Assembly (NCBI GenBank): GCA_017860635.1
Contig: JAGDMK010000002.1
Coordinates: 1-51,502, forward strand
Direction of reading: 5' to 3'
DNA from: Bacteroidota bacterium
Lineage (GTDB): Bacteria > Bacteroidota > Ignavibacteria > UBA10030 > UBA6906
DNA: 51,502 nt
Positions 913 through 30,575 of the stretch are shown here, piece by piece. The notes under the pieces were generated by a model. That model saw only the letters and a program-made list of their open reading frames with translations. It made no database searches and had not been told where the DNA came from. Made by a program: the position numbers and the translations under genes. Positions within the stretch are counted from its first letter, which is position 1, and each line of letters begins with the position of its first letter.

Positions 913-3609
913 ATGAGGACAAGCATTGTTGCGGGCCTCATCGCCGTGCTGTGCTATTCGGCGGTAGTATACGGCGGTACAACGGGCAAGATAGCCGGAA
1001 AGGTCACTGATGCCCAGACCGGCGAACCGCTTGTCGGCGTCAACGTTCTGGTTGTCGGCATGACGCTCGGTGCAAGCTCGGATATCGACGGCGAGTACTT
1101 CGTCTTGAATGTCCCTCCAGGAACCTACACCGTGAGGGCATCGGCGGTGGGGTATACCGCGATGACCGTCAATGCGGTGAAAGTCATGGTCGACCAGACA
1201 GTGCGCATCCCCTTCAGCCTGCAGCCCCAGACCGTCGAAATGAACGATGTGCTCATTACGGCTGAACGTCCGATCGTGCAGAAAGACCTCACATCCACGA
1301 CGGCTTCCGTCAGTGGCGAGGAGATTGCCTCGCTTCCGCTGGAGGACATTGCGTCTGTTGTGAACCTCCAGGCGGGAGTTGTGGACGGCCACTTCCGTGG
1401 CGGGCGATCCAACGAGGTGAAATATCTGATCGACGGGGTGTCGGTGAACGATGTCTTTTCAGGCGGGTTCACCCTCCAGGCAGAAGTGAACAGTATTGCG
1501 GAAGTGCAGGTGCTGAGCGGCACGTTCAATGCCGAATACGGCGAAGCAATGTCGGGTGTTGTCAACCAGGTCACGAAGATCGCCGGGGAACGGTACACCG
1601 GCGAAGTGTCTGCGTACGCCGGCGGATACATGACCGGCAGAACCGGGCTTTTTCTCGGCCGTGATGAGAAAGAGTTCCTCGGTTTTCTTCCCGAGCTCTA
1701 TTCAGGAGTGTACAACGTACAGGGAAGCCTGAGCGGTCCGGTGCCGGCCGTCCCGGAGCTTTTGCGGTTCTTTTTCTCCGGCCGCTATCTGGATGATAAC
1801 GGCTCCATATTCGGAACGCGCAAGTTCAACCCGCCGGATTCATCCGAGTTCTCGGCAAACGATCCCCGGGACTGGTTTGTCGGCGCGACTGGAGACGGGG
1901 CTGAAGTATCCATGAATTACTCCCGGCGCCTGACACTTCAGGGGAAGCTCGAAGCCAAGGTGGGAAGTGCGAAAGGGATTGTCCTGCAGGGCTTGTATCA
2001 GCAGACCAAATATCGTGAGTATGACCATGCCTTCCGCCTGAATCCGGACGGTGATTACCAGAGGATTCAGAAGAGCACGCTTCTCAGCGGGAGCTACACG
2101 CACGTGTTCGGTGAGTCCTCGTTTCTCGACGCAACGGCCTCGGCATTTCTGAGCGACTACAAGCAATACGTCTATGAAAACCCTCTCGACCCGCGGTATG
2201 TGAACCCGGAACGGCAGCAGGATGCCGGGGCCAATTCATTCCTTACCGGGGGAACGCAAAACTGGCACTTCAAGCATAACACAACGACGCTGACCGGCCG
2301 GTTGGACTACACCGCGCAGGTCACGCCGGTGCATCAGCTCAAGGCCGGCATTGACGGCCAGGTGCACACATTAGAATACTCGGATTTTCAGGTGCGGATT
2401 GACGCCTCAACGGGGTATCAGCCACAGATGCCGCCGGCGGGCAGCTTTGACTTCAACCAATACACCAACCATCCCTTCCAGTTTGCGGGATATGTCCAGG
2501 ACAAGATCGAACTGGAGTATCTCGTGGTCAATGTGGGAGTGCGGTTCGACTATTTCGAACCTGACGGAATGGTGCTGGTCAACCCGGACAGCATTGCTGC
2601 GCTTGATCGTATGCAGCCGCCTTACTCCGGACCGCTGTTTGCGAAGGCCAGTGCCAAGTACCAGTTCAGTCCCCGGGTGGGTCTTTCCTATCCTATTACC
2701 GATCGCGGAGCGGTGCATCTCTCCTACGGACATTTCTTCCAGGTGCCGGCCTTCTCGTACCTGTACAAGAACCCCAGTTTCCGCATCCCGCTCACCGGTA
2801 CATACCCGGAGTTCGTCGGCAATACGATCGGCAATGCCGACCTCGAGCCGCAGCGGACGACCATGTATGAGATCGGTCTTCAGCAGGAGCTGACGCCGAC
2901 CATAGGAGTAACGCTGACGGGGTACTACAAGGATATCCGGAATTTGCTCGGCCTGGAGATTCACATCAAGAACGACTTCAAGAAGTTCGGCAAGTATGTG
3001 AACCGGAACTACGGAGCGGTGCGCGGCATCACGCTTTCCTTTGAGAAGAGGCTCACCGACGGGTTCGGGACAAATGTGGACTACACCTATCAGATCGCGA
3101 AGGGTGACGCCTCGGATCCGAATGACGACTATAACAAAGCCCAGGCGAGTCCACCCATCGAGACCAACCGGTCCCTTGTGCCGTTAAGCTGGGACAGGCG
3201 GCATTCATTGAATGCAACGATCACGCTTGGCACACCCGACGATTTCATTGCCAGCCTGATTGGGCGCTTCGGATCCGGACTTCCCTATACACCGTCGCTG
3301 GTCAACCAGCGGACCGGACTCGAGAACAGTGACAACCGTCCCTCGTTCTACAACGTCGACTTGTATTGTACAAAGTATTTCACATTCAACGGGATGAATC
3401 TGTCGCTCTTTCTGAAGGTCTACAACCTGTTTGACACTGCAAACGAGTTGAACGTGTTCGGTGATACAGGGCGCGCCGGGTACACGCTGGAGCTCACGCG
3501 AGCGCAGGAAGCACCGCGGGGTGCGAACACGCTCGAGGAATACTACTCGCGGCCCGACTTCTACTCCTCGCCGCGGCAGGTCATGATCGGTGCAGCGCTG
3601 GGGTTCTGA
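913..3609 (+). CDS. TonB-dependent outer-membrane receptor
   Basis: 898 residues with an N-terminal signal peptide (about residues 1-22). Next comes a carboxypeptidase-regulatory-like beta domain (about 25-105: 'GKIAGKVTDAQTGEPLVGVNV', 'PPGTYTVRASAVGYT'). A plug domain (about 115-230) contains 'YLIDGVSVND' and 'EYGEAMSGVVNQVTK'. The rest is a 22-strand-type barrel ending 'SSPRQVMIGAALGF' with a terminal aromatic residue. The domain order matches SusC/RagA-like and OAR-like receptors, which take up ligands too large for porins using TonB-transmitted energy. There is no SusD beside it; an unrelated 1100-residue protein and a PorV-like barrel follow directly. The substrate is inferred from the mannan-type enzymes downstream. 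Confidence 0.9.
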   Translation: MRTSIVAGLIAVLCYSAVVYGGTTGKIAGKVTDAQTGEPLVGVNVLVVGMTLGASSDIDGEYFVLNVPPGTYTVRASAVGYTAMTVNAVKVMVDQTVRIPFSLQPQTVEMNDVLITAERPIVQKDLTSTTASVSGEEIASLPLEDIASVVNLQAGVVDGHFRGGRSNEVKYLIDGVSVNDVFSGGFTLQAEVNSIAEVQVLSGTFNAEYGEAMSGVVNQVTKIAGERYTGEVSAYAGGYMTGRTGLFLGRDEKEFLGFLPELYSGVYNVQGSLSGPVPAVPELLRFFFSGRYLDDNGSIFGTRKFNPPDSSEFSANDPRDWFVGATGDGAEVSMNYSRRLTLQGKLEAKVGSAKGIVLQGLYQQTKYREYDHAFRLNPDGDYQRIQKSTLLSGSYTHVFGESSFLDATASAFLSDYKQYVYENPLDPRYVNPERQQDAGANSFLTGGTQNWHFKHNTTTLTGRLDYTAQVTPVHQLKAGIDGQVHTLEYSDFQVRIDASTGYQPQMPPAGSFDFNQYTNHPFQFAGYVQDKIELEYLVVNVGVRFDYFEPDGMVLVNPDSIAALDRMQPPYSGPLFAKASAKYQFSPRVGLSYPITDRGAVHLSYGHFFQVPAFSYLYKNPSFRIPLTGTYPEFVGNTIGNADLEPQRTTMYEIGLQQELTPTIGVTLTGYYKDIRNLLGLEIHIKNDFKKFGKYVNRNYGAVRGITLSFEKRLTDGFGTNVDYTYQIAKGDASDPNDDYNKAQASPPIETNRSLVPLSWDRRHSLNATITLGTPDDFIASLIGRFGSGLPYTPSLVNQRTGLENSDNRPSFYNVDLYCTKYFTFNGMNLSLFLKVYNLFDTANELNVFGDTGRAGYTLELTRAQEAPRGANTLEEYYSRPDFYSSPRQVMIGAALGF

Positions 3610-3645
3610 CAGCATCTGTTCGAGCCCGTGCAAGGTTCCACAGAG

Positions 3646-6600
3646 ATGAGGCTTCCCATGCTGTTTACTCTTCGATTCTATCGCCGGCTTGCGATCCTGC
3701 TGGTCCTCCTTTGCGCCGGGACACTGTTTTGTACGGGTCAGTACATTGTGGACAAGACAAAAGGCCAGCACGGGGAGACCAAAAAGGGATACATGGACGG
3801 CAACCTCGTCGGTACCGTGTACTACAATTTCGGCGAGGTAGCGGACTGGCAGAATGAACCGACCCGGAGCGGCGTGTGGCCCAAAGGGACCAACCACACG
3901 TATGTCGACGGTGTGGCCATGATTGTACAGGCAGAGACATCTGCACCTGATCCCGCGAATCCCTCCAACACGGTCACGTTCCATCCGCTCGAGACGAATT
4001 ACTATGAGTACACACGGTACGACAGGAGCACTGGCGTAACCTATGGGTGGTGGCCGCTGCCGGGGTATGCAGCCCGATTCCAATCGAGTCCCGCGGTGAG
4101 CAACGACCCGTCAACCTGGCCGCCGCACTGGCCAGACCGCCCGAATACCTGGGACGGATACTGGAGCGGGTACTTTGGCAAGGGGGTCCTCAATGCCGAC
4201 CTCGAAACGTACTTCGTCTACGATGATAACGAGGATCGTGAATATCTCCTCCGCTATAACTACAGACCGGATGCCGCCGATACGTCGCGCGGAGGACTTG
4301 GCATGCAAGTGCGGGCCCGGGGATTCCAGTGGTCGCAAGTCCTTGCCGAAGACGTGATCTTCTGGCACTACGAAATCTCCAACATGTCCAGCACGGACTA
4401 CACGCGAACGCTGTTCGCGCAGTACGTAGACTGGGGCATCGGAGGGCACGACAACTCATCAAACAATGCCGGGGATTACAACAAGCTGCTGAACATCTCG
4501 TACGCCTGGTCCACGGTCTCGCGCGGCAACCCCGGGAACTGGAGCCCCGTCGGTCTTTCGGGATACGCCTTCCTGGAAAGCCCGGGCCTCGCCAACGACG
4601 GTCGCGACAACGATCTTGACGGACTCACGGAAGAACGGCGCGACAATACCGCGAACCTGTTCATCAAGGAGCCATCCCAGGATCCGTTCCTGCGGGATGT
4701 GCTGAAGGACACCGCCCAGTTCCGCGTTTTCTACGGGGTCGACTGGAAGCCCCACTGGGATGCCGACGAGAACGGCAACTGGCGGTCCTTCGACGATGTC
4801 GATGCAAATGGCACCTGGGAAAACGGAGAGCCTCTCAACGATGACGTCGGCTCCGATGGCATCGGTCCGCTGGATGACGGCTACCTGGGTCCGGATCTGA
4901 ACGGCTCGGAGGGGAACGGCAGGCCGGATCAGGGCGAGCCGAATTTCGGCATCCTGGACAAGGACGAATCCGACCAGCTCGGGTTGACCGGATTTTTGAT
5001 TTCGGCAGTGCACACGTATGATCTGAATGACGACGAGCGGAACTGGAAGGCTCTATCGGCGTTGCCGGAGCCGCACGGCGGCGAGCTGGTCGGTGTCAAC
5101 CTGGCCAACCATTTCTCAAGCTACCTCTTCCGGCTCCTGGGCAGAAATTCATATGCTGCGCAGACGGGCACCATCGAAGAAACCGGCGCTACGGAACGCT
5201 TCTCCATGGCATTGATCTTCGGCATGGACGTGGACGACCTCTTCCGGCGGAAGCGGACGGTGCAGCAGATCTACAACGCCAGCTACCGGTTTGCCAAACC
5301 GCCCGAGAAACCCGTCGTGAAGGCGATTCCGGGCGACGGGCGCGTGATCCTCTACTGGGATGACCGTGCCGAGCGCACCTTTGACGCGTTCTATCAGAAG
5401 TACAATTTCGAAGGATACCGGGTGTATCGCAGCACCGACGCGAACTTCATGGAAAGCAAGATCATCACCGACGCATACGGAAAGGCGACGTATCGCAAGC
5501 CGCTTGCGCAGTTTGATCTTGTCGACGGCGTGCAGGGGCTCCATCCAATCAACGTCAACGGCGCGCTGTTCCATCTCGGCGACGAGACTGGACTCCAGCA
5601 CTCGCTCATCGATTCAAGCGTCCAGAACGGGCAGACGTACTACTATGCCGTGGTGTCGTACGATCAGGGCTTCACCACGACAACAATCGAGCAGGATTTC
5701 CTCGGCATTCCTCCTTCCGAGTGCACCAGCATCATCAAGGTCGATATCAACGGACAGGTAAAGACCGACATCAATACGGCCGTTGTCGTCCCGCGCCCGC
5801 CCGCGGCAGGCTACGTGGCAGCGCGGCTTCCCATCGTGGAGGTCACCGGTCCTGGCACAGGCACCGTGACGGCGGATATTCTGGATCCGGATTCTCTGCG
5901 TTCCAACCACACATACAAGATCGGATTCGTCGACTCGACGGCGTTCCACACAGCGGCCAATCCGTACTACTTCCTCACGGACATGACGACGGGAGACACG
6001 CTGATCACGCCGCGGCGCATGCCGGCACGAAAGGTCACCACGCCGGTAATGCACGGGTTCAGCGTGACAATGCAGAACGATCCAGCCGTAGAAATTGACC
6101 GGAACAAATCGGGCTGGAAGACGGGAAAGACGACCTATGTCACGGAAGCGGGATTCAACACCGCATTCGGACAGGGAGCTCTTGCCCTGCGCAGAGTGGA
6201 CTACCCCGCAGATTTCGAGATCCGCTTCACGAATCCCGGCAAGGGCACCATTGCACTTCCGCGGTCCACGTTCTCAAACCCTAATCCCTCGAACGTTGTC
6301 ATCAAGAACCTGACCGAGAACCGGGACAGCATCGCGCTGGTGTTCTTCGACGAGAATGCGAACGAAGTTCTGGACCCCGGCGAGGCAATCTTTATTGCCG
6401 TGGGTGACTCGGCAGGAAAACCTGCGCCGTCGTTCCGCGATGCGCGGTTCACCTGGTCCCTTGCGTTCACAAAGGACACGCTGATTGCCGAGGCGGACCA
6501 GCGTGCGCCTCAGCCGGGCGACGTGTACCTGATTTCGACACGGAAGCCGTTCCGTACAGGCGAGTTCACGGGGTTTCAGGCTCAATCGCAGCAGTACGAT

Positions 6601-6933
6601 GCAGCAAAAGCCCAATCGGACCTCGCCAATGTAGCAGTGGTACCCAACCCGTATGCCGGTGCGGCCTCATGGGAACCTGCCACAACATCTGTGGGGCGCG
6701 GGGAACGGCGCATCTTTTTTATTCACCTCCCGCGCGAGTGCACGATCAGGATCTACACGATGGCAGGCCGTCTTGTGCAGACCATTCAACATGTCTCATC
6801 GCTTGCCGACGGACAGACGTCATGGAACCTGGTGTCGCGTGACGGTATGGATGTCGCCTATGGCGTGTATGTGTACCATGTCGATGCGCCCGGCGTGGGG
6901 ACCACCGTCGGCAAATTCGCCGTTCTAAAGTAG
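3646..6933 (+). CDS. Large secreted T9SS-tailed surface protein next to TonB receptor
   Basis: About 1095 residues with unknown function. ATG 3646, ATG 3658 (preceded by ATGAGG) and GTG 3628 are all in frame; 3658 gives the cleanest signal peptide ('RLAILLVLLCAGTLFC'). The first 350 residues are aromatic-rich and unassigned. Residues about 370-440 are dense in Asp/Asn/Gly ('DDVDANGTWENGEPLNDD'), resembling calcium-binding EF-hand/thrombospondin-3-type loops. A fibronectin-III-like segment starts near residue 553 ('GDGRVILYWDD'). The last 100 residues form a T9SS-like tail starting at VVPNPYAG and ending GKFAVLK. It sits between receptor and PorV-like barrel with gaps under 40 bp, so it is probably one operon. 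By position it could be the surface ligand-binding partner that SusD provides in Bacteroidia; that role is inference. Confidence 0.65.
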   Translation: MRLPMLFTLRFYRRLAILLVLLCAGTLFCTGQYIVDKTKGQHGETKKGYMDGNLVGTVYYNFGEVADWQNEPTRSGVWPKGTNHTYVDGVAMIVQAETSAPDPANPSNTVTFHPLETNYYEYTRYDRSTGVTYGWWPLPGYAARFQSSPAVSNDPSTWPPHWPDRPNTWDGYWSGYFGKGVLNADLETYFVYDDNEDREYLLRYNYRPDAADTSRGGLGMQVRARGFQWSQVLAEDVIFWHYEISNMSSTDYTRTLFAQYVDWGIGGHDNSSNNAGDYNKLLNISYAWSTVSRGNPGNWSPVGLSGYAFLESPGLANDGRDNDLDGLTEERRDNTANLFIKEPSQDPFLRDVLKDTAQFRVFYGVDWKPHWDADENGNWRSFDDVDANGTWENGEPLNDDVGSDGIGPLDDGYLGPDLNGSEGNGRPDQGEPNFGILDKDESDQLGLTGFLISAVHTYDLNDDERNWKALSALPEPHGGELVGVNLANHFSSYLFRLLGRNSYAAQTGTIEETGATERFSMALIFGMDVDDLFRRKRTVQQIYNASYRFAKPPEKPVVKAIPGDGRVILYWDDRAERTFDAFYQKYNFEGYRVYRSTDANFMESKIITDAYGKATYRKPLAQFDLVDGVQGLHPINVNGALFHLGDETGLQHSLIDSSVQNGQTYYYAVVSYDQGFTTTTIEQDFLGIPPSECTSIIKVDINGQVKTDINTAVVVPRPPAAGYVAARLPIVEVTGPGTGTVTADILDPDSLRSNHTYKIGFVDSTAFHTAANPYYFLTDMTTGDTLITPRRMPARKVTTPVMHGFSVTMQNDPAVEIDRNKSGWKTGKTTYVTEAGFNTAFGQGALALRRVDYPADFEIRFTNPGKGTIALPRSTFSNPNPSNVVIKNLTENRDSIALVFFDENANEVLDPGEAIFIAVGDSAGKPAPSFRDARFTWSLAFTKDTLIAEADQRAPQPGDVYLISTRKPFRTGEFTGFQAQSQQYDAAKAQSDLANVAVVPNPYAGAASWEPATTSVGRGERRIFFIHLPRECTIRIYTMAGRLVQTIQHVSSLADGQTSWNLVSRDGMDVAYGVYVYHVDAPGVGTTVGKFAVLK

Positions 6934-6946
6934 GAGGAGAGAGCGT

Positions 6947-7987
6947 ATGACCTCATTGCGAAGTGTGCTCCTTCTTGTCGTACTTGTGTTGCCGGCTGCG
7001 GCGTGCGCACAACCGGGCTCCCAGGAAGTGGCCAAAACGGGTACGGTGGCTGCACCGTTCCTCGAGATCCCTGCCGGGGCCGCGGCCATGGGCATGGGCA
7101 CGGCGTTTGTCAGCATCGCCAACGATGCGTCGGCGCTCTACTGGAATCCCGCGGGCGCAGCTCTCTTCACACAGAACGAAATCGTTGCGAACCACATGAC
7201 ATGGATCGCGGACACGCGGTTCGACTTTGCTGCGCTCGCCATCCCGTTGGGCGACGTCGGGACGTTTGGCCTGAGCTTCACCTCACTCTCAATGGACGAC
7301 ATGAAGGTCCGGACGGTAGACCAGCCCGAAGGGACCGGCGAGTATTTCAGCGCGGGGGACATCGCTGCCGGACTCTCCTATGCTCGGCAACTGAGCGAAC
7401 GCTTCTCGGTGGGGTTCACAGTCAAGTATATCCAGCAGAGCATCTGGCACGAATCGGCCAGCGCATTTGCGCTCGACATCGGAACGCTGTTCCGCACGGA
7501 TCTCCTCGGCGGACTGGTGGTCGGCGCCTCCCTGTCGAACTTCGGCACATCGATGCGGCTCGACGGACGCGATACGCGCCAGTTCGGCCGTGTGGATGAT
7601 ACCAAACTCGGTTCCAATGACCAGATTCCTTCGACCATCGAAATGGAATCCTGGGATCTGCCGTTGTTGTTCCATCTCGGTCTCTCCTTCAACCCCGTGA
7701 AGGACGACGAGTATCGCTGGACGGTGGCAGTCGATGCGCTTCATCCGAGCGACGACTATGAGAGCCTGAGTGTGGGCACGGAGCTGGCCTTCCGCGAATT
7801 CCTGTGCGTACGTGCCGGATACCATTCGCTCTTCCTCGACGAGGCAGAAGGAGGATTGGCGCTGGGCTTCGGGCTCACGTCGTCAATGCTCTTCTCGTCC
7901 ATGACGATTGTGCGACTGGACTACGCATACAACGACATGGGCCGGCTGGGAGGCGTCAACATGATCTCACTGGGGATACGGTTTTGA
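6947..7987 (+). CDS. PorV/PorQ-family outer-membrane beta-barrel protein
   Basis: 346 residues with a strong ribosome site (AGGAGGAGAG) 6-8 bases before ATG 6947. A signal peptide is followed by the family hallmark 'FLEIPAGAAAMGMGTAFV...DASALYWNPAGAA', shared by PorV (LptO) and PorQ and related FadL-like barrels. Alternating hydrophobic strands then run to the end 'GGVNMISLGIRF'. In Bacteroidota PorV shuttles T9SS cargo from the translocon to the attachment complex. Many genomes of this wider group carry several paralogues next to transporters, so this copy may serve the neighbouring T9SS-tailed protein specifically. The barrel family is well supported; the dedicated-partner idea is inferred from gene order. 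Confidence 0.8.
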   Translation: MTSLRSVLLLVVLVLPAAACAQPGSQEVAKTGTVAAPFLEIPAGAAAMGMGTAFVSIANDASALYWNPAGAALFTQNEIVANHMTWIADTRFDFAALAIPLGDVGTFGLSFTSLSMDDMKVRTVDQPEGTGEYFSAGDIAAGLSYARQLSERFSVGFTVKYIQQSIWHESASAFALDIGTLFRTDLLGGLVVGASLSNFGTSMRLDGRDTRQFGRVDDTKLGSNDQIPSTIEMESWDLPLLFHLGLSFNPVKDDEYRWTVAVDALHPSDDYESLSVGTELAFREFLCVRAGYHSLFLDEAEGGLALGFGLTSSMLFSSMTIVRLDYAYNDMGRLGGVNMISLGIRF

Positions 7988-8021: not shown

Positions 8022-9632
8022 ATGCGAGCCCGCTCCCCGCGGAGCCCATTGCTCCTCGCGGCGTTCCTCTTCTGGTTCGGCGGACCTGCGACGGCCCAGG
8101 AGCAGGACCTGCGCACGCTGCTTTCCCCCGATCCGCTGGATACTGCTGTGGCCAACACGGTCGTGGCCCGCGTCGGCCCCGCATCCATCACGGCCCGGGA
8201 ATTCTTCTTCAATTATCTGTTCGGGCCATCATTCGTGAAGAAACGGCCGGACTCACGGCGGCGGCACCTCGATTTCATGCTTCACGAAAAACTCCTGGCA
8301 CTCGGCGAAGAGGCAAAGGGAAAAATTCAGGACCGCCGCGTTGAAGAGAACCTCCTGGCCGTGGAGGGAGATGTTGCGACAGAAGAACTCTATCGCGACG
8401 ATGTGTTGAGCCGGGTCCGCGTGACAGAACAAGAGATCGACTCAGCCGTACACCGGCAGAGTGTCGAAGTGAGCATGCGCTGGCTGTACGCACGGGAGGA
8501 ACAGGATGCCCGCACCCGGAGCCAGGCACTCCGGAACGGGGCTTCGTTCGACTCACTGTTCTTCATGCAGTTCAGCGACAGCAACCTTCAACGTGACGAC
8601 CGCATGATGCGGACAACCCTGTTCGGGTTGATGCAGCGCAACGGTGCGATGAGCCGGATTGCAGAAGGTCTTTCCGCGGGAATGCCGTCAGGCCCGGTGA
8701 GGGGGGCGGACGGCTGGTACATCCTCCAGGTCGATTCGCTCTGGACAAACGTCATCACCACAGGATCTGCAGATGCTGAAATGCGGCTGAGCGCCCTCCG
8801 CGCGGTCACGCAGATGAACGCTGACAGCATCTCCGACGCCTACATCCGGCAAATGATGCTCGATGCCGACCCCGTCATCCAGCGCCGGACGTTGGACATT
8901 CTCCGTGCGCACCTCGGGGAAAGAGTGCTGACGCCAGAGACATTCACGGCCTGGGATCTGGCGGGGCGTTTCCGTGCAGAACAGTCGCCTGTGGATTACG
9001 CTTATGTGGAACAGCATGAGGAAGATGTGCTTGTGACCCTGCGCGGGAAAACGATTACGCTCGGCCAGTTCCTCCGGTGGTACAGAATGCGGGAGACCGC
9101 CCTGAAACTCCGGTTGACCTCTCCGCAGGCGTTCTTCCTCTCTCTGGAAGATCTTGTGTGGCGCATGGTTCGTGATGAATTGCTGGTGGAGCGGGCCAGA
9201 AACCGCCGCCTGCACGAACGCCCGGAAGTGAGTACACAAGTCCGGTGGTGGAAAGACAAGCTGCTCTATCAGGTGGCGAAGGATTCGCTGCGGAGGGCGA
9301 TCGGTTGGACTGACTCCACGCTGCAGGCGTACTACGCGGCACATCCTCGCTCTTTCCAGGACAGCAGCGGCAACGTTCTCCCGTTCGGGTTCGTGCGGGA
9401 TGACGTTCTGCGCGAATGGTACGCCCTGACGCTCTCGGAACGCATTGTCCGTCGTCTCGCAGAGTTGCGGCGTCAATTTCCGGTCACCGTTGATGAAGAC
9501 GCTCTCAAGCGCATTCCTGTGGATGCAGAGAACAACCCGCGCGCCATCGACATTGTTGCGGCCAAAAAAGGGGGCACGTTCCCGCGCCCGGCGTTCCCAA
9601 CTATCGATCCGTTCTGGCAGACCTGGCAATAG
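8022..9632 (+). CDS. SurA/PpiC-like periplasmic peptidyl-prolyl isomerase/chaperone
   Basis: 536 residues with an N-terminal signal peptide ending 'GGPATAQ'. The early segment 'TVVARVGPASITAREFFFNYL' and a following long helical region are typical of the SurA N-terminal chaperone domain. A parvulin-like core lies at about residues 140-245 ('VTEQEIDSAV', 'GMPSGPVRGADGWYILQVDSL'). A second helical, possibly degenerate parvulin, part follows. Such proteins fold outer-membrane barrels in the periplasm, which fits its place right after a TonB receptor and a PorV-like barrel. No clear ribosome site precedes ATG 8022, and the 34-base gap after the PorV-like gene suggests cotranscription. Isomerase activity is not certain because the parvulin domain is divergent. 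Confidence 0.7.
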   Translation: MRARSPRSPLLLAAFLFWFGGPATAQEQDLRTLLSPDPLDTAVANTVVARVGPASITAREFFFNYLFGPSFVKKRPDSRRRHLDFMLHEKLLALGEEAKGKIQDRRVEENLLAVEGDVATEELYRDDVLSRVRVTEQEIDSAVHRQSVEVSMRWLYAREEQDARTRSQALRNGASFDSLFFMQFSDSNLQRDDRMMRTTLFGLMQRNGAMSRIAEGLSAGMPSGPVRGADGWYILQVDSLWTNVITTGSADAEMRLSALRAVTQMNADSISDAYIRQMMLDADPVIQRRTLDILRAHLGERVLTPETFTAWDLAGRFRAEQSPVDYAYVEQHEEDVLVTLRGKTITLGQFLRWYRMRETALKLRLTSPQAFFLSLEDLVWRMVRDELLVERARNRRLHERPEVSTQVRWWKDKLLYQVAKDSLRRAIGWTDSTLQAYYAAHPRSFQDSSGNVLPFGFVRDDVLREWYALTLSERIVRRLAELRRQFPVTVDEDALKRIPVDAENNPRAIDIVAAKKGGTFPRPAFPTIDPFWQTWQ

Positions 9633-9639
9633 AGGGTTC

Positions 9640-10938
9640 ATGAAATTTGTGAGCGTCACAGTACTGATGCTGTGCCTGATCGCCGGATGTGCGGACCAGG
9701 GGAAATCCCCGGACGGCGGCGGGGGTGCGGTCGAGTTGACCTACTGGCCTGCACCGAATCCGCAGGAGATCCAGCTGGCAGACACGCTGGTCCGGCGCTG
9801 GAACGCGCTGCATCCTGAATGCCTCGTGCGCATGCAGCCCATACCGGTCAGCCAGTCCACCGAAGAAGTGCTGCTGGCAGCCATCGCTGGAGGGACAACC
9901 CCGGACATCTGTTCGAACATTCAACCCGGTGCCCTGTATGATTTTGTCCGTGCCCGGGGTCTCCTGCCGCTCGACCAATTCCCCGGTTTCGATTCCATCG
10001 CTCTCGAGCGGGCAGGAGCAGAACTCCTGCAGACGTTCCGGAGTCCGGACGGTCACATCTATCAGCTACCGTGGAAGTCCAACCCTGTCATGATGTTCTA
10101 CAACAAGCGGCTGCTGCGGGAGGCGGGGATCGCAGGGCCGCCGCGCACGTTCAACGAATATCTTGCCGCGGGAAGACGCGTCACGAAGGATACCACCGGC
10201 GATGGGCAGACAGATATCTGGATGGGCGAACGGGACATCCGGCCGATCTGGTGGCAACGCCTTTTTGACTTCTACCCATTCTACATTGCTGCCTCATCAG
10301 GGCGCACGCTGTTTGCCAACGGCCAGCTTGCCCTCGATGAGCGTGCTGCAGCCGAAGTGCTGGCGTTCTTCCGCACCTGTTATGGTGAAGGCATTTATCC
10401 ACGGACCTTCTTCCAGGCCGGTGATCCGTTTCTGCTGGAGATGAAAGCGACGCACTTCTCCGGCCCGTGGGAAGTGGCCACCATCAGGAAGTTTGCGCCG
10501 ACCATGGACTACGGAGTTGCTCCGCTGCCGGTTCCGGATGATGTCACCGGACCTGTCTATACCTATGGTGACTTCAAAAACATCGCCATCTTCAGCACGT
10601 CACAGCATCCTGAAAAGGCATGGGAATTTGTCAGGTATCTTGTGCGTGCCGAACACGATCTGCTCCTCCTTCAGCTCTGTGACCAGATACCGGTACGCAC
10701 GGACCTTGTCACGAATCCCCTTTTTGCCGGATACTTCCGTGCAAACCCGGTGATGGCGGAGTTCGGCAGGCAGCTCCAGCATATTCGGGGCATTGATACC
10801 GCACCGGACCTGAAGGAAATCTTTGACACACTTTCGCAGATTTATGAAGCAAGCGCAGTGTACGGATCGACAGAACCGCAGGACGCCGTGCGCGAGATTG
10901 TCCGGCGGACGAACATCATTGTGGAGTGGAACCGGTGA
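9640..10938 (+). CDS. Sugar ABC transporter substrate-binding lipoprotein
   Basis: 432 residues. ATG 9640 has AGAGGG just upstream and yields a lipoprotein signal with lipobox LIAGC, so the protein is anchored by a lipidated Cys to a periplasm-facing membrane. The body matches family-1 extracellular solute-binding proteins (MalE-like): 'ELTYWPAPNPQE', 'GTTPDICSNIQPG', 'WKSNPVMMFYNKRLLREAGI', 'GDFKNIAIF' and 'HPEKAWEFVRYL'. Two MalFG-type permeases follow with overlapping ends, so it delivers an oligosaccharide to that importer. The open frame runs further upstream, but inside the preceding gene. The ligand is probably a mannooligosaccharide given the downstream enzymes (inference). Confidence 0.9.
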   Translation: MKFVSVTVLMLCLIAGCADQGKSPDGGGGAVELTYWPAPNPQEIQLADTLVRRWNALHPECLVRMQPIPVSQSTEEVLLAAIAGGTTPDICSNIQPGALYDFVRARGLLPLDQFPGFDSIALERAGAELLQTFRSPDGHIYQLPWKSNPVMMFYNKRLLREAGIAGPPRTFNEYLAAGRRVTKDTTGDGQTDIWMGERDIRPIWWQRLFDFYPFYIAASSGRTLFANGQLALDERAAAEVLAFFRTCYGEGIYPRTFFQAGDPFLLEMKATHFSGPWEVATIRKFAPTMDYGVAPLPVPDDVTGPVYTYGDFKNIAIFSTSQHPEKAWEFVRYLVRAEHDLLLLQLCDQIPVRTDLVTNPLFAGYFRANPVMAEFGRQLQHIRGIDTAPDLKEIFDTLSQIYEASAVYGSTEPQDAVREIVRRTNIIVEWNR

Positions 10939-11831
10939 ACGGACGTGCATCAGGATTGCGTGACAGGTTCCGCCGGAGCAATCGGAGTGCCTACGGCCTC
11001 GTGCTTCCGTATGTCATCTTCTTCCTTGCCTTCGTGGCGTATCCGCTGACCTTCTCGTTGCTCCTGGTCTTCCACCGGTGGAACATCGTCACGCCAATGG
11101 AATGGATTGGACTGAAGAACTTCACCCGGCTTCTGGAGGACCCGCTGTTCTACGCATCCCTGCTCAACACGCTGGTCTTCCTGCTTCTCCACATCCCGCT
11201 GCAGGTTGTTGTGGCACTCGGCTTTGCGCTTCTCCTCAATTCCCGGATCCCGGGACGGGGATTCTTCCGCGCCGTGTATTTCATGCCGGTAGTGGTCTCA
11301 GGCGTTGTGGTGACCATTCTGTGGCAGCAACTCTACTCGTTCGACAACGGGCTGCTGAACGGCATGCTGCGTGCTGTTGGGATTGGCCCGGTTCCGTGGC
11401 TTGTGGATCCGCGGATTGCCATGCCCGCCATTGCGCTGATGGCCACGTGGAAGAATGTCGGCATCTACATTGTCCTGTTCCTTGCAGGACTGCAAACTAT
11501 CCCGCGTGAGCTCTATGATGCCGCAAGTGTCGACGGTGCCACACCGGCGCGCCAGTTCCTGCACATCACGCTGCCAATGCTTAACCCGACCATGGTCGTG
11601 ATCGTCGTGCTCTCCACAATCGGAGGATTCTCACTGTTCATCGAACCGTACGTGCTGACCGGCGGCGGGCCGATGCAGAGCACGCTTTCAGGAATGTTGT
11701 ACATCTACAACCAGGGATTCTATTTCAATCATATGGGATATGCCGCGACGCTGGGCTTCGTCTATGCCATGATCATCCTCCTGATCGTGCTTCTCCAGAG
11801 GAGGCTCATCGGACGGGAGCAGACTGCATGA
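10935..11831 (+). CDS. Sugar ABC transporter permease (MalF type)
   Basis: 298 residues, six predicted membrane helices ('LVLPYVIFFLAFVAYPLTF', 'LNTLVFLLLHIPLQVVVAL' and so on). It carries the EAA-loop signature 'YDAASVDGATPARQFLHITL', which docks onto the ABC ATPase. GTG 10935 overlaps the upstream stop by 4 bases (GTGA) and has GGAG eight bases before it, so it is preferred over GTG 10926. It forms the membrane channel together with the next gene. No ATPase gene is present in the window; a shared MsmX/UgpC-type ATPase elsewhere is expected, as in many sugar importers. Confidence 0.9.
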   Translation: MNGRASGLRDRFRRSNRSAYGLVLPYVIFFLAFVAYPLTFSLLLVFHRWNIVTPMEWIGLKNFTRLLEDPLFYASLLNTLVFLLLHIPLQVVVALGFALLLNSRIPGRGFFRAVYFMPVVVSGVVVTILWQQLYSFDNGLLNGMLRAVGIGPVPWLVDPRIAMPAIALMATWKNVGIYIVLFLAGLQTIPRELYDAASVDGATPARQFLHITLPMLNPTMVVIVVLSTIGGFSLFIEPYVLTGGGPMQSTLSGMLYIYNQGFYFNHMGYAATLGFVYAMIILLIVLLQRRLIGREQTA

Positions 11832-12637
11832 AGACGTTCTTCCGGTACATCATCTTGCTGGTCGGTGCAGTGATCTTCGCCTATCCGTTTCTCTGGATGA
11901 TTGCGGGATCGTTCAAGCCCGAACTGGAGATACGCGGATTCGGCCTCTGGTCTGAACAGTTCTCGCTGCACAGCTATCACACTGTGCTGACCAAGATTCC
12001 CATCGGCCGCGCGTTGCTCAACAGTCTGATCGTGTCAGGAGCCACCACTGCGTCGGTGATTCTTTTTGGCTCCATGGTCGGGTATGCGCTTTCAAGACTT
12101 ACGTTCGTCGGTGGAAAGGCCCTGTACACGCTCATCCTTATCACGATGATGATACCGTTCCAGATTGTCCTGATTCCTCAGTACATCCTCATGGTGAAGC
12201 TCGGGTGGACAGATTCATACCTGGGCCTGGTTGCACCGACGATGATGAGCGCGTTCAGCATCATTCTGTTCCGGCAGTTCTTTATGGCAATACCGCAGGG
12301 CTTGATCGACGCGGCCCGGCTTGACGGGGCCTCAGATCTGACAATCCTCTTCCGCGTCATCTGGCCCCTCTCGCGGCCGGTGATGGTTACCGTGGCCATC
12401 CTGACATTTATGACCAGCTGGAATGAAGTCCTCTGGCCGCTGCTCGTGGTGCGGGAACGTTCTCTGATGACTATGCCCCAGATCGTGACGATCTTCACCA
12501 CTGGCGGGGAGGCCGAAGCGCAGCTCGGTTCGCTCCTCGCGGCTGCAACACTGCTGGCGCTGCCGATAATCGTCGCGTATGCATTCTTCCAGAAGTACTT
12601 CATTGAGAGCATGGCCACGACCGGCTTGAAAGGCTGA
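11828..12637 (+). CDS. Sugar ABC transporter permease (MalG type)
   Basis: 269 residues with six predicted membrane helices and the EAA loop 'IDAARLDGASDLTILFRVIW'. The C-terminal end 'YFIESMATTGLKG' is typical of MalG-like subunits ('GL.AGAVKG'). ATG 11828 overlaps the stop of the MalF-type gene by 4 bases (ATGA), indicating translational coupling and equal subunit production. It pairs with the preceding permease and the lipoprotein as a CUT1-type carbohydrate importer. Confidence 0.92.
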   Translation: MKTFFRYIILLVGAVIFAYPFLWMIAGSFKPELEIRGFGLWSEQFSLHSYHTVLTKIPIGRALLNSLIVSGATTASVILFGSMVGYALSRLTFVGGKALYTLILITMMIPFQIVLIPQYILMVKLGWTDSYLGLVAPTMMSAFSIILFRQFFMAIPQGLIDAARLDGASDLTILFRVIWPLSRPVMVTVAILTFMTSWNEVLWPLLVVRERSLMTMPQIVTIFTTGGEAEAQLGSLLAAATLLALPIIVAYAFFQKYFIESMATTGLKG

Positions 12638-12639
12638 CC

Positions 12640-15201
12640 ATGACACGGGTATTCGGGTGTACGCTGCTGATCCTCTTCTGTGCCTGGCAGGCTGCCGGAC
12701 AATCCCCGTACGGCTGGGAGGAAGGCTGCGCCGTGCGGTTTGCCGGCAGGTACGGGCAGGTCGAAGCCGGCGGTCCCCTCGCCGGAATCGAATGTCACGA
12801 CAGCCGGCCGCTACTGTCACGTGTGAGTCTCTATGCTCCCGTTGCGAACAGCATCGATCTGAGCACGGACTATTGGAAACGCGGCGACTCGCGACCCTTC
12901 GTTGTTGGCGTCAGGCTGGACCAGCAACAGAAGCGGTGGCTGGGGAAGGAGCCCTGGGAGTACGTGGCATCGCCGCATGCCGTGCGTTTTGAGAGAACGG
13001 AAGGCGATCTCAGGTACACGATCCGGTACGACTTCGGCAGCCGGCTGGCAGCCGTGGTCATGACGATCGGCGTTGTGAACACCGGGAGCGCACCACACCA
13101 CCTGGAAATGTATACGCATATGAGTCTGGTGCTCCGCTCCTGCCAGACCTATGCAAGAATTGCGGCGGCACAAACACAGTTCGACCGCCGCCACCATGCC
13201 ATCCTCGGGTTGTTCGATGATCCGCGCGTCGCACGGGCTGCTGTGATCGTGCAGAATGCCGGGCTTGCCCCGTCGGCCTGGACGTCAAGCGGCGAGGAGC
13301 TTGGGGTGCAGGATTCCGGCTGGTCAAACTGGATCGAACGCGAAGACGCTCCTGCCTCCACGCTGTTGCGGTCAGCGAAAAGCCGGCACCCTGTGGCCGC
13401 GTTCACATATCGCTTCTCGATTCCTCCGAGAGATTCGACCGCAATTGTTCAACTCGTGAGCAGCGTTCCCGGGAAGGATGCGGAAAAGGCGATTGTCAGC
13501 GCCGCGAAAGACTGGAGGAAAGATGTTGCCCTCTACAGGACGGCCGTGCGCCAGGCGGCGTACGGCGGTGCGGGCTTCCAATCCGGTCATGCATGGACCG
13601 ACAGCTCGGTTGCCTATTCCCGCGCACTTCTCGAGGCCAATCAGCACTACCTCAACGGTGCAATTGTCCCTATGCCCTGTCCGGCCGAGTACAATTTCTT
13701 CTTCACACACGATGTATTATTGACCTGTCTCTCGGCGATTGCGTTCGATCCCGGTCGCGTAAGGCGGGATCTGCTCTCTATTGCCGGCCATGCGAAGGGG
13801 AGAGTGATCCCGCATGCATATTACTGGAAGGACGACGGGTTCAAGACAGAATACTGCAGCCCCGGCAACTGGAACAACATGTGGTTTATCCTCGCAACCG
13901 CCAGTTATCTCCGTCACACCATGGACACAACAGCAGTCCAGCGCCTGTACCCGCTGCTTACAAAGAGTCTGGAGCAGACGCTGTCCAGACGATCGGGGAA
14001 TGTCATGCACGGCACCGAGCCGGACTGGTGGGACTTCGGACATGCCGTCGGTGCACGCGCCTATCTGACCGTTCTGACGATCAGGGCGCTGGAGGAATAT
14101 GTGTTCGTCTCTGCGTGGCTGCGGAAGAACCTTCCCCGGCTGGGAGGCTACGAGGCCATGGCCTCCGGGTTGCGCGACGGGCTTATGACGGATCTGTGGG
14201 ATGAGTCCTCCGGCTACCTTCTGAACACAATCGGACCGGAGCGTGACCGGCACATCTACATGGGAGCGTTGCTGGCGGCGGTCTTTGGCCAACTTCCAGA
14301 TGCGAATGCACAGCGGCTTGTGGCCACAGCCAGGACTATGCTGGTGGACTCCGGCATTGGCATTCGTACCGTTTCCCCTGCGGATTTCCACACCGATTCC
14401 GTGAAGAGTCTGTACAAAGTGAAAGGGAACGAAGCGGGGAATCCATTCACGTACGCGAACGGAGGCGTGTGGTACCTCGGCAACGCCTGGTATGCCCGGG
14501 CTCTCAGGTCGACCGGCGATGCCGAAGGGTCATTTGACTTCTTCGCGCGGACGATGACCGTGGACGGTATCGTGCAGAGTCCCTGCGGGCAACCCGCATT
14601 GTACGAATACCGGTACGCGAATCCGGATGCGGCAAATCATGGATGGATTGACAAGCCGACCATGATGTGGTCAGCGGGCTTCTGTATCGGCACCGCATAT
14701 CTGCTCGCGGGCCTGGAGGATAACATCTGGAACGTGACAGCAGCTGGCAAAGCTGCGAGGGCTCTGGAACATGTGCGATGCACGTATGCCTTCGGCGGCC
14801 GCAAGTCAGTGGAACGGCGGGGCAGTGGTCCCATGCTGATACGCATGCTGGCCGATGCAAAGGAAATCCCGTCGCGCATCCTTCCGCTCGACGCCAGAGG
14901 CGCAACGTCTCTCACCGTCGATATGGGAGCCATCCGGCATCCGTTTCTGGACAGCGTGAATGCGATACTTCACGCTGCTTCGCTCGATCCGGATGCGAAA
15001 GTCCTGCGGTTTGTACTTTCATCCTTCGACGACCACCTGACAACGGTGAAAGTGATCACCCCCTGGCTTGCACGGTCCGTCACCATCAACGGTGGGGCGT
15101 GGAAGGACTGGGCTGTGACTTCAACACCCACAGGGACTCTCGTGGTGACAGTCCGGTACGGGGCTTCCGAAGGCGCAGATACTGTTGAGATTCGTTTCTG
15201 A
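12640..15201 (+). CDS. Secreted (alpha/alpha)-barrel glycosidase-like protein
   Basis: 853 residues with a signal peptide ending 'AWQAAGQ'; it starts two bases after the permease stop with GAAAGG upstream. The first 270 residues are beta-rich, like the N-terminal domain of GH63/GH94/GH15-type enzymes. The C-terminal 400 residues look like a six-hairpin helical barrel: 'HDVLLTCLSAIAFDPGRVRRDLL', 'NWNNMWFILATASYLRHT', 'GTEPDWWDFGHAVGARAYL', 'ANGGVWYLGNAWYARAL'. Acidic residues in 'GTEPDWWDF' and 'LWDESSGYL' are candidate catalytic or sugar-contact residues. It probably trims oligosaccharides in the periplasm before ABC import. The exact GH family could not be fixed by eye; GH63-, GH94- or amylo-glucosidase-like assignments are all possible. 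Confidence 0.55.
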   Translation: MTRVFGCTLLILFCAWQAAGQSPYGWEEGCAVRFAGRYGQVEAGGPLAGIECHDSRPLLSRVSLYAPVANSIDLSTDYWKRGDSRPFVVGVRLDQQQKRWLGKEPWEYVASPHAVRFERTEGDLRYTIRYDFGSRLAAVVMTIGVVNTGSAPHHLEMYTHMSLVLRSCQTYARIAAAQTQFDRRHHAILGLFDDPRVARAAVIVQNAGLAPSAWTSSGEELGVQDSGWSNWIEREDAPASTLLRSAKSRHPVAAFTYRFSIPPRDSTAIVQLVSSVPGKDAEKAIVSAAKDWRKDVALYRTAVRQAAYGGAGFQSGHAWTDSSVAYSRALLEANQHYLNGAIVPMPCPAEYNFFFTHDVLLTCLSAIAFDPGRVRRDLLSIAGHAKGRVIPHAYYWKDDGFKTEYCSPGNWNNMWFILATASYLRHTMDTTAVQRLYPLLTKSLEQTLSRRSGNVMHGTEPDWWDFGHAVGARAYLTVLTIRALEEYVFVSAWLRKNLPRLGGYEAMASGLRDGLMTDLWDESSGYLLNTIGPERDRHIYMGALLAAVFGQLPDANAQRLVATARTMLVDSGIGIRTVSPADFHTDSVKSLYKVKGNEAGNPFTYANGGVWYLGNAWYARALRSTGDAEGSFDFFARTMTVDGIVQSPCGQPALYEYRYANPDAANHGWIDKPTMMWSAGFCIGTAYLLAGLEDNIWNVTAAGKAARALEHVRCTYAFGGRKSVERRGSGPMLIRMLADAKEIPSRILPLDARGATSLTVDMGAIRHPFLDSVNAILHAASLDPDAKVLRFVLSSFDDHLTTVKVITPWLARSVTINGGAWKDWAVTSTPTGTLVVTVRYGASEGADTVEIRF

Positions 15202-21196: not shown

Positions 21197-21427
21197 CTCA
21201 CCAACGGTGAATACCCGCGCCGGCATTCCGGCGCGAACAGTATCTCGTGAACGATCCTTGATGAGTCAAGAAGCTCACCAACGGTGAATACCCGCGCCGG
21301 CATTCCAGCGCGAACAGTATCTCGTGAACGATCCTTGATGAGTCAAGAAGCTCACCAACGGTGAATACCCGCGCCGGCATTCCGGCGCGAAGAGCATCTC
21401 ATGAGCAGTCCTCGAAGAGTCAAGATG
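21197..21427 (+). repeat. Three tandem 77-bp repeats, each with a perfect hairpin
   Basis: Copies start at 21197, 21274 and 21351. Copies 1 and 2 differ at one base; copy 3 matches for its first 40 bases and then diverges. Each carries the inverted repeat CGCGCCGG-CATT-CCGGCGCG (21216-21235 in copy 1), an 8-bp stem with a 4-base loop; in copy 2 one stem base is changed. The array fills the gap between the T9SS-tailed gene and the beta-mannosidase gene. It could act as a REP-like mRNA-stabilising or terminating element. There are no spacers, so it is not CRISPR. Confidence 0.85.
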
Positions 21428-21471
21428 CTTCCCGGAGGATGTATACTCAACACACCATGCGAAAGAAAACG

Positions 21472-23928
21472 ATGTCCAAGCAGACAATTGACCTGAGCGG
21501 CTCATGGCAATTTCGATGTGAAGACACGTACAATGCCCTTCCCCGCAGCCATCAGTCGTTGGCACGGTGGATGAAAGCGGCCGTTCCCGGAACGGTCCAT
21601 ACCGACCTTATGGCCGCCGGCAAGATCGCCGATCCGTTCTACCGCACCAATGAAAACGACATTCAGTGGATAGACAGAGTGCGGTGGATCTACAGACGGA
21701 CCTTCGTTGTTTCCGATGCCGTTTTGCAGGAGCAGGCGATCGAGCTGGTGGCCGAAGGTCTCGACACCTTTGCGGCCATCCGGATCAACGATAGCCAGGT
21801 CGGATCTGCGTTCAACATGTTCATCGGGCATCGCTTCGACGTAAAATCCTCTCTCCATCCTGGCATCAATACGATTGAAATCGCCTTTGACTCTCCGACC
21901 GTGAGAGCGAAGGCGATTGAACAGGAACATGGAAGACTCCGGGTTGCGCTGGAGTCGTATCGGGCCTACGTACGCAAAGCCCAGTATTCGTTCGGGTGGG
22001 ACTGGGGGCCGAAACTCACCACATCCGGCATATGGCGCCCCATCCGCATTGAAGCGTACTCCGGCGGACGGCTCAAGGATCCAGTCGTCCGTGTGGTCTC
22101 GGCAGATGCAGATGCGGCAGAGATAGTCGTTGCCGTGTCGGTAACCAACGAAGGAAACGCACAGCACGAGCTGGACATCAGTATTACGGGAGGAGACAGG
22201 GAGGTAAAGTCATCAGCCGTCGTAGCGGGAGCGAACGCCGTGCTGAAGTGCTCCGTCTCCCAACCCAGACTCTGGTGGCCCAACGGATACGGGGAGCAGC
22301 ACCTGTACACTGCGGAACTTGCCCTCCGGCTCGGCACAGAGGTGGTGGACACGGCAAGTGTGCGTTTTGCCATTCGTACCGTGCGTCTCGTTCAGGAACC
22401 GGACGAAGAAGGGCGTTCGTTCATCATAGAGGTGAACGGGGTGCCGGTGTTCTGCAAGGGTGCCGACTGGATTCCATCGGACAGTTTCATTCCGAGGATC
22501 AAGGACGCTACATACACCCGTCTTCTCACAATGGCCCGCGACGCGTCCATGAACATGATCCGTGTGTGGGGAGGAGGGATTTATGAGCAGGAGATCTTCT
22601 ATGACCTCTGCGACCGCCTCGGTCTCATGGTGTGGCAGGATTTCATGTTCGCGTGCGGCGAGTACCCCGATCATCCTGCATTCCTGGAGGCAGTGCGCGA
22701 GGAAGCGGAATCGGTTGTGCGCCGTCTGCGCAACCATCCGTGCATCGTGCTCTGGTGTGGCAACAACGAATGTGAGTGGCTCTTCTGTACCGAAAATCCC
22801 GCCAAGACCCCTGATGACATGAGGGGCGCACCGATCTTCCGCGATGTCCTTGCCAGAGTTGTGCGCGATCAGGACGGCACGCGTCCCTACTGGCGCAGCA
22901 CGCCGTTCGGAGAGGGCTTCCCGAATGCACAGGATAACGGAAACCACCATCAGTGGGAAGTGTGGAGCGCATGGAAGGACTTCCTCCACTACCGCGAGAA
23001 CCACGCACGGTTTGTTTCCGAGTTCGGTTTTCAGGGTCCGCCCGATCCCCGCACACTCGAGCGTGTGACGCTGCCGGAGGACCGGTCACTTCATTCGGCA
23101 GTGGTGCAGCACCATAACAAACAGGTGGAAGGAATGGAGAGGCTCTTCCGGTTCCAGGCTGCGCATTACCCTGTGGCGGCGGACTGGGCCGGGTTCTTCC
23201 ACACGGGTCAACTGGTGCAGGCCGACGCGTTGAAGTGCGCCGTTGAGCACTGGCGCCGGAGGAAATTCAGAACAGGCGGGGCGCTGTTCTGGCAGCTCAA
23301 CGACTGCTGGCCTGTGATGAGCTGGTCCGTGATCGATGCCGATCTCCGCCCGAAGGCGTCGTACTATGCCGCACGCCGTTTCTTTGCACCTGTGCTCGTC
23401 TCCCTCGCGCAGGCCGGACCGGATATTCGGGTGTGGGGGACGAACGACTTCCTCGTGGATGTGCCGTCAAGGGTGTCGCTGTCTCTCCGTTCATTCAACG
23501 GAGACGTGCTCTGGCGCAAGAACATGCGCGTCGTGGTACCGCCCAATGCATCCGTCATCCTGTACACGGTGCCCGGGATTGTGATGCGCAAGGTGGATCC
23601 CGCAACCATGTACCTTCATGCAGTCCTTGCCTATGCAGGTGGAGGGGTGACGGAGAACAGGCATTACTTCCTTGAGCCCAAGCATCTTAAGCTGCCGCAT
23701 GCCCGCGTTGCCATCAGCGTGCGGAAGTCAGGTCCCGGTGTTTACCGGGCACGCGTGCGTTCCACGAAGTTTGCGTTTGGCGTCGCTCTGACTGCGGCAG
23801 TCGATGCAGACATCCATGAGAATTGGTTTGACCTGGATGTGGGGAGCGCGCGGGATGTCATAATCTCGAGCGAACTGCCGCTTGCTCAACTGCGTCGGAC
23901 GATTGCCGTCCGTGCACTCAATTCATGA
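21472..23928 (+). CDS. Beta-mannosidase, GH2 family, cytoplasmic
   Basis: 818 residues from ATG 21472; ATG 21439 and 21457 are in frame, but a TATACT hexamer at 21442 argues for a later start. There is no signal peptide, so it acts in the cytoplasm. Domains follow the GH2 order: sugar-binding jelly roll ('DLSGSWQFR', 'AVPGTVHTDLMAAGKI'), Ig-like domains, then a TIM barrel. The general acid/base is E433 in WCGNNECEW and the nucleophile E517 in FVSEFGFQ, the beta-mannosidase pattern; 'GVRFRDADWIPSDSF'-like sequence appears here as 'FCKGADWIPSDSFIPR'. It releases mannose from the non-reducing end of beta-mannosides (EC 3.2.1.25 type). Two GH130 phosphorylase genes follow directly, giving hydrolytic and phosphorolytic routes for the same substrates. 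Confidence 0.92.
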   Translation: MSKQTIDLSGSWQFRCEDTYNALPRSHQSLARWMKAAVPGTVHTDLMAAGKIADPFYRTNENDIQWIDRVRWIYRRTFVVSDAVLQEQAIELVAEGLDTFAAIRINDSQVGSAFNMFIGHRFDVKSSLHPGINTIEIAFDSPTVRAKAIEQEHGRLRVALESYRAYVRKAQYSFGWDWGPKLTTSGIWRPIRIEAYSGGRLKDPVVRVVSADADAAEIVVAVSVTNEGNAQHELDISITGGDREVKSSAVVAGANAVLKCSVSQPRLWWPNGYGEQHLYTAELALRLGTEVVDTASVRFAIRTVRLVQEPDEEGRSFIIEVNGVPVFCKGADWIPSDSFIPRIKDATYTRLLTMARDASMNMIRVWGGGIYEQEIFYDLCDRLGLMVWQDFMFACGEYPDHPAFLEAVREEAESVVRRLRNHPCIVLWCGNNECEWLFCTENPAKTPDDMRGAPIFRDVLARVVRDQDGTRPYWRSTPFGEGFPNAQDNGNHHQWEVWSAWKDFLHYRENHARFVSEFGFQGPPDPRTLERVTLPEDRSLHSAVVQHHNKQVEGMERLFRFQAAHYPVAADWAGFFHTGQLVQADALKCAVEHWRRRKFRTGGALFWQLNDCWPVMSWSVIDADLRPKASYYAARRFFAPVLVSLAQAGPDIRVWGTNDFLVDVPSRVSLSLRSFNGDVLWRKNMRVVVPPNASVILYTVPGIVMRKVDPATMYLHAVLAYAGGGVTENRHYFLEPKHLKLPHARVAISVRKSGPGVYRARVRSTKFAFGVALTAAVDADIHENWFDLDVGSARDVIISSELPLAQLRRTIAVRALNS

Positions 23929-30538: not shown

Positions 30539-30575
30539 TGTTTATAGGAATTCCGGATTTCGATCTGGAGGTTAC

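Follow-up and report, generated by a model that had tools for sequence, protein, structure and literature searches.

The DNA analysed here, a stretch of 51,502 nucleotides (the window) of contig JAGDMK010000002.1 from an Ignavibacteria-like member of the Bacteroidota (assembly GCA_017860635.1), has a 5′ edge that is also the contig end and derives from a genome that is 88% complete. Close to this edge, three genes encode in succession an 898-residue TonB-dependent receptor with a CarboxypepD_reg extension (913–3609), a 1101-residue surface protein exported by the type IX secretion system (T9SS) and putatively ligand-binding (3628–6933), and a 346-residue FadL-like barrel of the PorV/PorQ family, a putative private shuttle and anchor (6947–7987). 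This triad and a fourth gene, for a 536-residue SurA-like periplasmic chaperone candidate (8022–9632), lie on the same strand (forward, as do all features given below) with gaps of 18, 13 and 34 bp. A preliminary description made from the sequence had reported receptor, 1100-residue protein and barrel in this order, at positions that the open reading frames (ORFs) match exactly, and had joined them with the SurA-like gene into one module; the SusD-less triad was found to be recurrent, and the SurA-like gene to lie outside the general module. That description had overlooked that the operon runs on into a sugar ATP-binding cassette (ABC) importer and mannoside enzymes and that the module recurs about 12 times in the genome. 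The window triad seems to be one of several copies of an outer-membrane kit for nutrient uptake, placed here within a mannoside-utilisation locus.

The receptor matched PF00593 (108 bits), PF13715, PF13620 and PF07715, with CarboxypepD_reg, Plug and barrel each above cut-off, in agreement with the TonB receptor described previously. Its earlier designation as SusC-type did not hold, as TIGR04056 matched its N-terminal extension only, with 70.6 bits (cut-off 368); with no full-length match above that cut-off, membership of the SusC/RagA family was rejected. Among eight other triad receptors, six matched TIGR04056 with at most 82.6 bits and two had no match at E 1e-15, compared with 702.3 bits for a control SusC (locus L140).

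The assignment of the third gene product to the PorV/PorQ family was confirmed (NF033709, 208.9 bits, cut-off 90), and the barrel matched the PorV structure 6h3i with E 1.8e-9. It fell below the equivalog cut-offs of T9SS PorV (NF033710, 78.6 bits, cut-off 250), of T9SS PorQ (NF033711, 83.3 bits, cut-off 220) and of PorV2, and scored 20.8 bits against the BamG model (cut-off 250). None of the triad barrels tested (those of the window, L086 and L165) reached the PorV or PorQ equivalog cut-off, and general PorV and PorQ exist apart from them, the PorU-adjacent barrels of L096 (256 bits) and L113 passing the PorV cut-off and the barrels of L120 and L133 that of PorQ. Most parsimoniously, each triad barrel would be the private seat of its own surface protein. 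One triad barrel (G016:C39:193553-194488) has an in-frame TAG in its profile match, yet L132 has a 336-residue ORF there.

The C-terminal domain (CTD) of the surface protein (6571–6930), a putative docking site for the barrel, appears to belong to the long PorU/PorZ type. In the predicted model its closest fold was PorZ (5m11; Z 10.6, root-mean-square deviation 2.6, 92 residues, 30% identity), PorU (6za2) followed with Z 6.9, and the score against TIGR04183 was 17.9, below the cut-off of 23; the Ig-like type A CTD fold of T9SS-exported proteins was recognised in it through the PorZ match. The T9SS tail noted earlier was corroborated by the last 110 residues, which match PorZ and PorU CTDs; the FN3-like region noted with it was not recognised by Pfam. 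Models of PorZ, of the generic type A tail and of PorU were matched by 48, 36 and 35 of 52 triad CTDs, respectively, and their length, counted from the P[ND]P motif to the last residue, had a median of 97 residues; 76 generic tails, chosen by motif among the same loci, had 78.5. In Porphyromonas gingivalis, cleaved CTDs have 67–88 residues, and those of PorZ and PorU, both retained, have 96 and 108 (PMC11285876), lengths that were measured from a different point and are comparable with the triad CTDs only in trend. PorV holds PorU and PorQ holds PorZ (PMC5562754, PMC10202324), the CTDs of PorU and PorZ are not removed (PMC11285876, PMC10202324), and cognate PorV-like barrels have been suggested to shield CTDs from cleavage (PMC10202324). 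Judged by class and predicted fold, triad CTDs would likewise be retained on the cell surface. The T9SS channel SprA was found in 19 of 21 genomes searched, that of the window included.

No Pfam family, those of SusD included, matched the 1101-residue protein at E 0.01. Its predicted model was confident only at residues ~723–1000 and in the CTD, models of residues 1–720 and 40–545 being of very low confidence (pLDDT 31.9 for the latter). Foldseek against the PDB ranked PorZ first by E-value, long matches with low TM being set aside, and SusD was not among the VIA-align matches, a list that excludes nothing. Matches to FlgL and FlgK (VIA-align, Z 8.6 to 9.8, residues 729–989) were taken as a common beta arrangement, and the best hit of a PDB profile search (E 0.047) as chance. 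Residues D327, N328, D329, D331 and G332 of a previously noted calcium loop were, among others, invariant in a 25-row alignment; going by the motif, they may bind calcium. A lipobox pattern was present in no part of the window protein and in 3 of 50 triad proteins, in each case inside a hydrophobic stretch by eye, and no lipid anchor is apparent from the sequences of triad surface proteins. By profile comparison, the bodies of 14 triad groups form one linked superfamily (56 of 91 group pairs reaching at least 90%).

As had been claimed, SusD was missing: neither PF07980 nor PF14322 was found in the window's own genome, at its 88% completeness. Of 21 genomes of the order that were searched, 19 lacked PF07980 and one had PF14322; in the genome with both families (G017), SusD adjoins a true SusC of 702 bits. 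Pairwise hhalign runs without a database, made for 5 of 14 triad groups, gave probabilities of at most 0.5% between triad proteins and the SusD of L140. PorV-family genes were present in 117 of 148 genomes of the phylum. Among the matches listed, the 36 genomes of the class had a median of at least 10 PorV-family genes, with SusD in six of them at one copy each, and the 25 genomes combining PorV-family genes with at least eight SusD all had five PorV-family genes or fewer; across the 117 genomes the two numbers ran in opposite ways (Spearman -0.60). SusCD is rare in this group rather than absent, because SusC, SusD and SusE were named earlier in Melioribacter roseus (PMC3534657).

The triad recurs in its own genome and in others, and the idea of a single odd case was therefore discarded. 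With the window protein as sole query, 15 further CTD-region matches were obtained in its genome, 13 of which, PorU among them, have a PorV-family gene directly 3′. Beyond the window, triads complete as far as visible occupied 11 contigs of this genome (C322, C166, C288, C130, C81, C384 and C48; C97, whose barrel runs off the contig; C278 and C292, whose receptor does so; and C371, with the receptor cut by the end of the examined stretch); in C183 the barrel precedes the receptor, and contig ends truncate C353 and C228. Across eight genomes of the order, 52 of 76 PorV-family genes directly followed a triad-type surface gene, the 76 being those among the matches listed, which lean to high scores and include the window's own set. 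A receptor was in view for 49 of these 52 pairs, the other three being cut by contig or stretch ends. The remaining PorV-family genes comprised eight next to a gene for a PorU-like protein (one in each genome; PorU was confirmed for two), eight after a TonB receptor gene with no adjacent surface gene and eight otherwise placed. An unselected set, namely all 42 PorV-family genes over cut-off in three complete genomes with no choice by score, had 25 after a strong triad CTD, three after PorU-sized proteins, four after a TonB receptor and ten in other settings. In these three genomes, 20 of 69 PF00593 receptors belonged to triads and three more to TonB-PorV pairs, and 25 of 33 strong CTDs had a PorV-family gene directly downstream, a figure inflated by CTD profile A2, which already held 20 of the 33; by comparison, only four of 84 weak, generic tails preceded a PorV-family gene, three of them PorU-sized. 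Triads were also found in genomes sharing only the phylum with the window, in all six stretches around high-scoring non-PorU barrels (L165-L170); L175 and L177, top-scoring barrels chosen as PorU-PorV examples, had no triad in the stretch. Neighbours of other triad copies include GH16, an MGH1-like glycosidase, alginate lyase, PIG-L and M14.

Two further arrangements of PorV-family genes were seen. Three loci (G012:C33:32401-34602, G014:C7:1018030-1020093 and G016:C14:71167-73194) encode a T9SS protein of ~515-566 residues followed by two tandem PorV-family barrels. One shorter-body triad group has a gene of ~500 residues 3′ of the barrel, weakly like the PorV profile in most copies (L091:5483-6970, L116:1515-3017, L129:9927-11468, L143:9907-11397, L169:2477-3973 and L170:2081-3577).

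In 46 complete triads, the distances of barrel, CTD, body and receptor correlated among same-genome paralogs with r 0.69 to 0.82, compared with a null of 0.09 to 0.17 and with none of 1000 within-genome shuffles as high; the strongest correlation was that of the receptor with the surface-protein body (r 0.82). At the level of sequence, this co-divergence and the linked bodies show that the three proteins are inherited as a unit; contact is not proven by them.

Close relatives of the 1101-residue protein (61–90% identical over the best segment) occurred in 26 loci of Ignavibacteriales, Melioribacteraceae and unclassified Bacteroidetes. Among genes in colinear order, the receptor stood 5′ of it in 22 of the 26 loci and the barrel 3′ of it in 22 as well, each absence falling at a contig end; because it is kept wherever the contig has room, the order of the triad is not due to chance. 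The possibility raised earlier, that the surface family would mostly lack a TonB neighbour, was not borne out, as all 22 loci with room have the receptor upstream. The SurA-like gene, whose chaperone assignment received support from a weak peptidyl-prolyl isomerase match (Rotamase_2, 28.7 bits, cut-off 27), was present in 22 of the 26 loci at 30–45% identity, the other four being cut by contig ends. It had no match in the stretches around the genome's other PorV-family genes and was rejected as a module part, being specific to the window-type locus.

Downstream, the operon encodes the sugar-binding protein of an ABC importer (9637–10938; PF13416, PF01547) and its permeases of the UgpA/MalF (10926–11831) and UgpE/MalG types (11828–12637; both PF00528), found respectively in 20 and, each, in 19 of the 26 loci, with the remaining six and seven cut by contig ends. 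Farther 3′ lie a GDE_C-like glycosidase candidate (12640–15201; PF06202, 26.7 bits, cut-off 21), a dehydrogenase, a candidate beta-mannosidase of glycoside hydrolase family 2 (GH2) with a mannosidase Ig domain (21361–23928; PF22666, PF17786, PF00703), two GH130 beta-mannoside phosphorylase candidates (23953–25065 and 25117–26163; PF04041, 92.7 and 105.4 bits) and an esterase. The best model fit of both GH130 proteins was beta-1,2-mannobiose phosphorylase (107.6 and 144.5 bits), yet below its cut-off of 450, so that the cautious assignment is to beta-mannosides in general, with no particular linkage. GH130 genes also lie downstream in many of the orthologous loci. At 27168–31865, a Radical SAM/SPASM gene precedes two large ORFs (636 and 444 residues) with no Pfam or NCBIfam match.

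Upstream of the receptor, the contig end cuts the 5′ part of a gene for a T9SS-tailed protein (2–847; TIGR04183, 38.8 bits; FlgD_ig) with a generic tail, whose full-length orthologs have ~500 residues. The gene precedes that of the receptor in 19 of 26 loci and is missing from seven that contig ends cut short. Both loci that reach far enough 5′, L066 (whose protein was the one scanned) and L080, have a LacI regulator there. All 26 orthologous contigs, of up to 369 kb, end within 6.8 kb upstream of the gene for the 1101-residue protein, mostly in or near the T9SS-tailed gene; in L058 and L074 it is present as diverged copies in tandem (77-96% in pieces), and a repeat therefore probably breaks the assemblies there (ends of L057-L082).

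We propose, with a probability of about 0.6, that the triad forms a SusCD-like nutrient-uptake complex without SusD, in which the surface subunit leaves through the T9SS and is held by a barrel of its own. After export, the long PorU/PorZ-type CTD would be kept uncut and docked on the PorV-family barrel encoded by the next gene, a step modelled on the docking of PorU on PorV and of PorZ on PorQ. Docking would park the surface protein beside the TonB receptor of the preceding gene, where it could capture glycan pieces and pass them to the receptor. At the window copy the cargo would probably be a beta-mannoside, handed on to the ABC importer and cut by the GH130 and GH2 enzymes. Physical complex, CTD retention, anchoring, ligand capture and substrate are all what we infer from these data.

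Several observations weigh against this proposal. Residues 1-720 did not fold, so that ligand binding is without structural support. Mere operon co-inheritance would also give co-divergence, the inverse relation of SusD and PorV-family numbers ignores phylogeny and rests on the matches listed (up to ~13-14 per genome), and the generic type A model is shared by the 36 triad CTDs mentioned above. Cases adjacent to PorV were the source of the CTD profile; outside it, five of 13 strong CTDs have a barrel directly downstream, and three more have one 5.7-7.5 kb on, behind a receptor in the same cluster. Five of the 33 strong CTDs have no PorV-family gene nearby, three of them with a receptor within ~2.1 kb (L160, L162) or ~3 kb upstream (L163). 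Seven of eight genomes hold a TonB-PorV pair without adjacent surface gene, and some triad copies adjoin non-sugar genes, such as a Meth_synt gene. The barrel-less CTDs and the conserved pair indicate that the module has variants. The other two barrel-less CTDs are orphans with no receptor or barrel in the stretch (L161:7478-11716, 1412 residues; L164:6380-8452, 690 residues), and six of the seven pairs (L098, L103, L114, L125, L142, L150, L156) have a triad-type T9SS protein 5.5-7.3 kb upstream of the barrel.

The barrel might instead be a dedicated secretion shuttle only, with the surface protein subsequently released or fixed to lipopolysaccharide and the receptor acting alone, merely co-regulated. 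Type A CTDs are indeed shuttled by PorV, and type B CTDs have cognate shuttles in PorP/SprF proteins (PMC12618676, PMC5562754), a role with which the generic type A matches would agree. We consider this unlikely, given that triad CTDs fall in the long PorU/PorZ length class, that type A cargo is already handled by one general PorV (a PorU-sized protein with adjacent PorV was found in all eight genomes) and that it is receptor and surface-protein body that co-diverge most. More doubtful still is that the barrel is itself a FadL-like transport channel, the surface protein feeding both receptor and barrel: PorV has been termed a FadL homologue in the literature, the TonB-PorV pair without adjacent surface gene is conserved and the barrel weakly matches the FadL family (PF03349, E 0.0005, below cut-off), but its best family is PorV/PorQ, it is tied to a CTD-bearing gene and evidence of transport is lacking. 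Large T9SS surface proteins are often adhesins, and some triad copies have no obvious catabolic neighbours. Even so, a module for attachment or trans-envelope signalling instead of uptake seems improbable in view of the ABC sugar-binding protein in every orthologous locus not cut short, the glycosidases downstream and the absence of a sigma/anti-sigma gene beside the window copy in general Pfam scans.

SusCD is the textbook glycan importer of Bacteroidota. Like SusC/SusD (RagA/RagB), the triad combines a TonB receptor carrying a CarboxypepD_reg extension with a large surface partner encoded together, in many copies per genome and sited in glycan loci; unlike it, the triad has a receptor outside the SusC/RagA family, a PorV-family barrel as third gene, and a partner with a T9SS tail, no SusD match and no convincing lipobox. 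With the PorU:PorV and PorZ:PorQ pairs of the T9SS attachment complex it shares a long-CTD surface protein and a PorV/PorQ-family barrel, porU and porV being moreover adjacent in the same order; the triad differs in barrels that, where tested, score below both equivalog cut-offs, in a surface protein that is neither sortase nor PorZ and in the inclusion of a TonB receptor. SprB/SprF likewise places a barrel gene directly 3′ of its own T9SS cargo gene (PMC12618676), but joins a type B CTD to a cognate PorP/SprF shuttle, whereas the triad has a type A-like CTD of the PorU/PorZ class, a PorV-family barrel and a receptor. In BamG/BamH of the Bacteroidota BAM complex, a FadL-family barrel also anchors a large surface protein, but there the large protein, BamH, is a lipoprotein and the function is outer-membrane protein folding (PMC12611786), and the window barrel scored far below the BamG cut-off. 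In the open-access literature, as far as its text was accessible and with subscription papers and preprints outside the scope, we found no description of a TonB / T9SS surface protein / PorV-family triad, nor is one given in the accessible parts of PMC12618676, PMC5562754, PMC11285876, PMC10202324, PMC12611786, PMC12578637 and PMC3534657.

More tentatively, and with slightly less than even confidence, the triad may represent a second general class of Bacteroidota glycan-uptake machine, built from a TonB receptor, a T9SS-exported protein for capture and a PorV-family barrel as private anchor. Such machines would replace SusCD in the Ignavibacteria-like class and coexist with it elsewhere, CTD/barrel pairs serving as protein anchors in place of lipid anchors. 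The triad puts to a direct test the suggestion that cognate PorV-like barrels shield CTDs from cleavage (PMC10202324). If true, the proposal would explain glycan import in a class of Bacteroidota that has almost no SusCD, assign a function to dozens of PorV-family genes still unexplained and extend the T9SS from secretion to the permanent assembly of uptake complexes.

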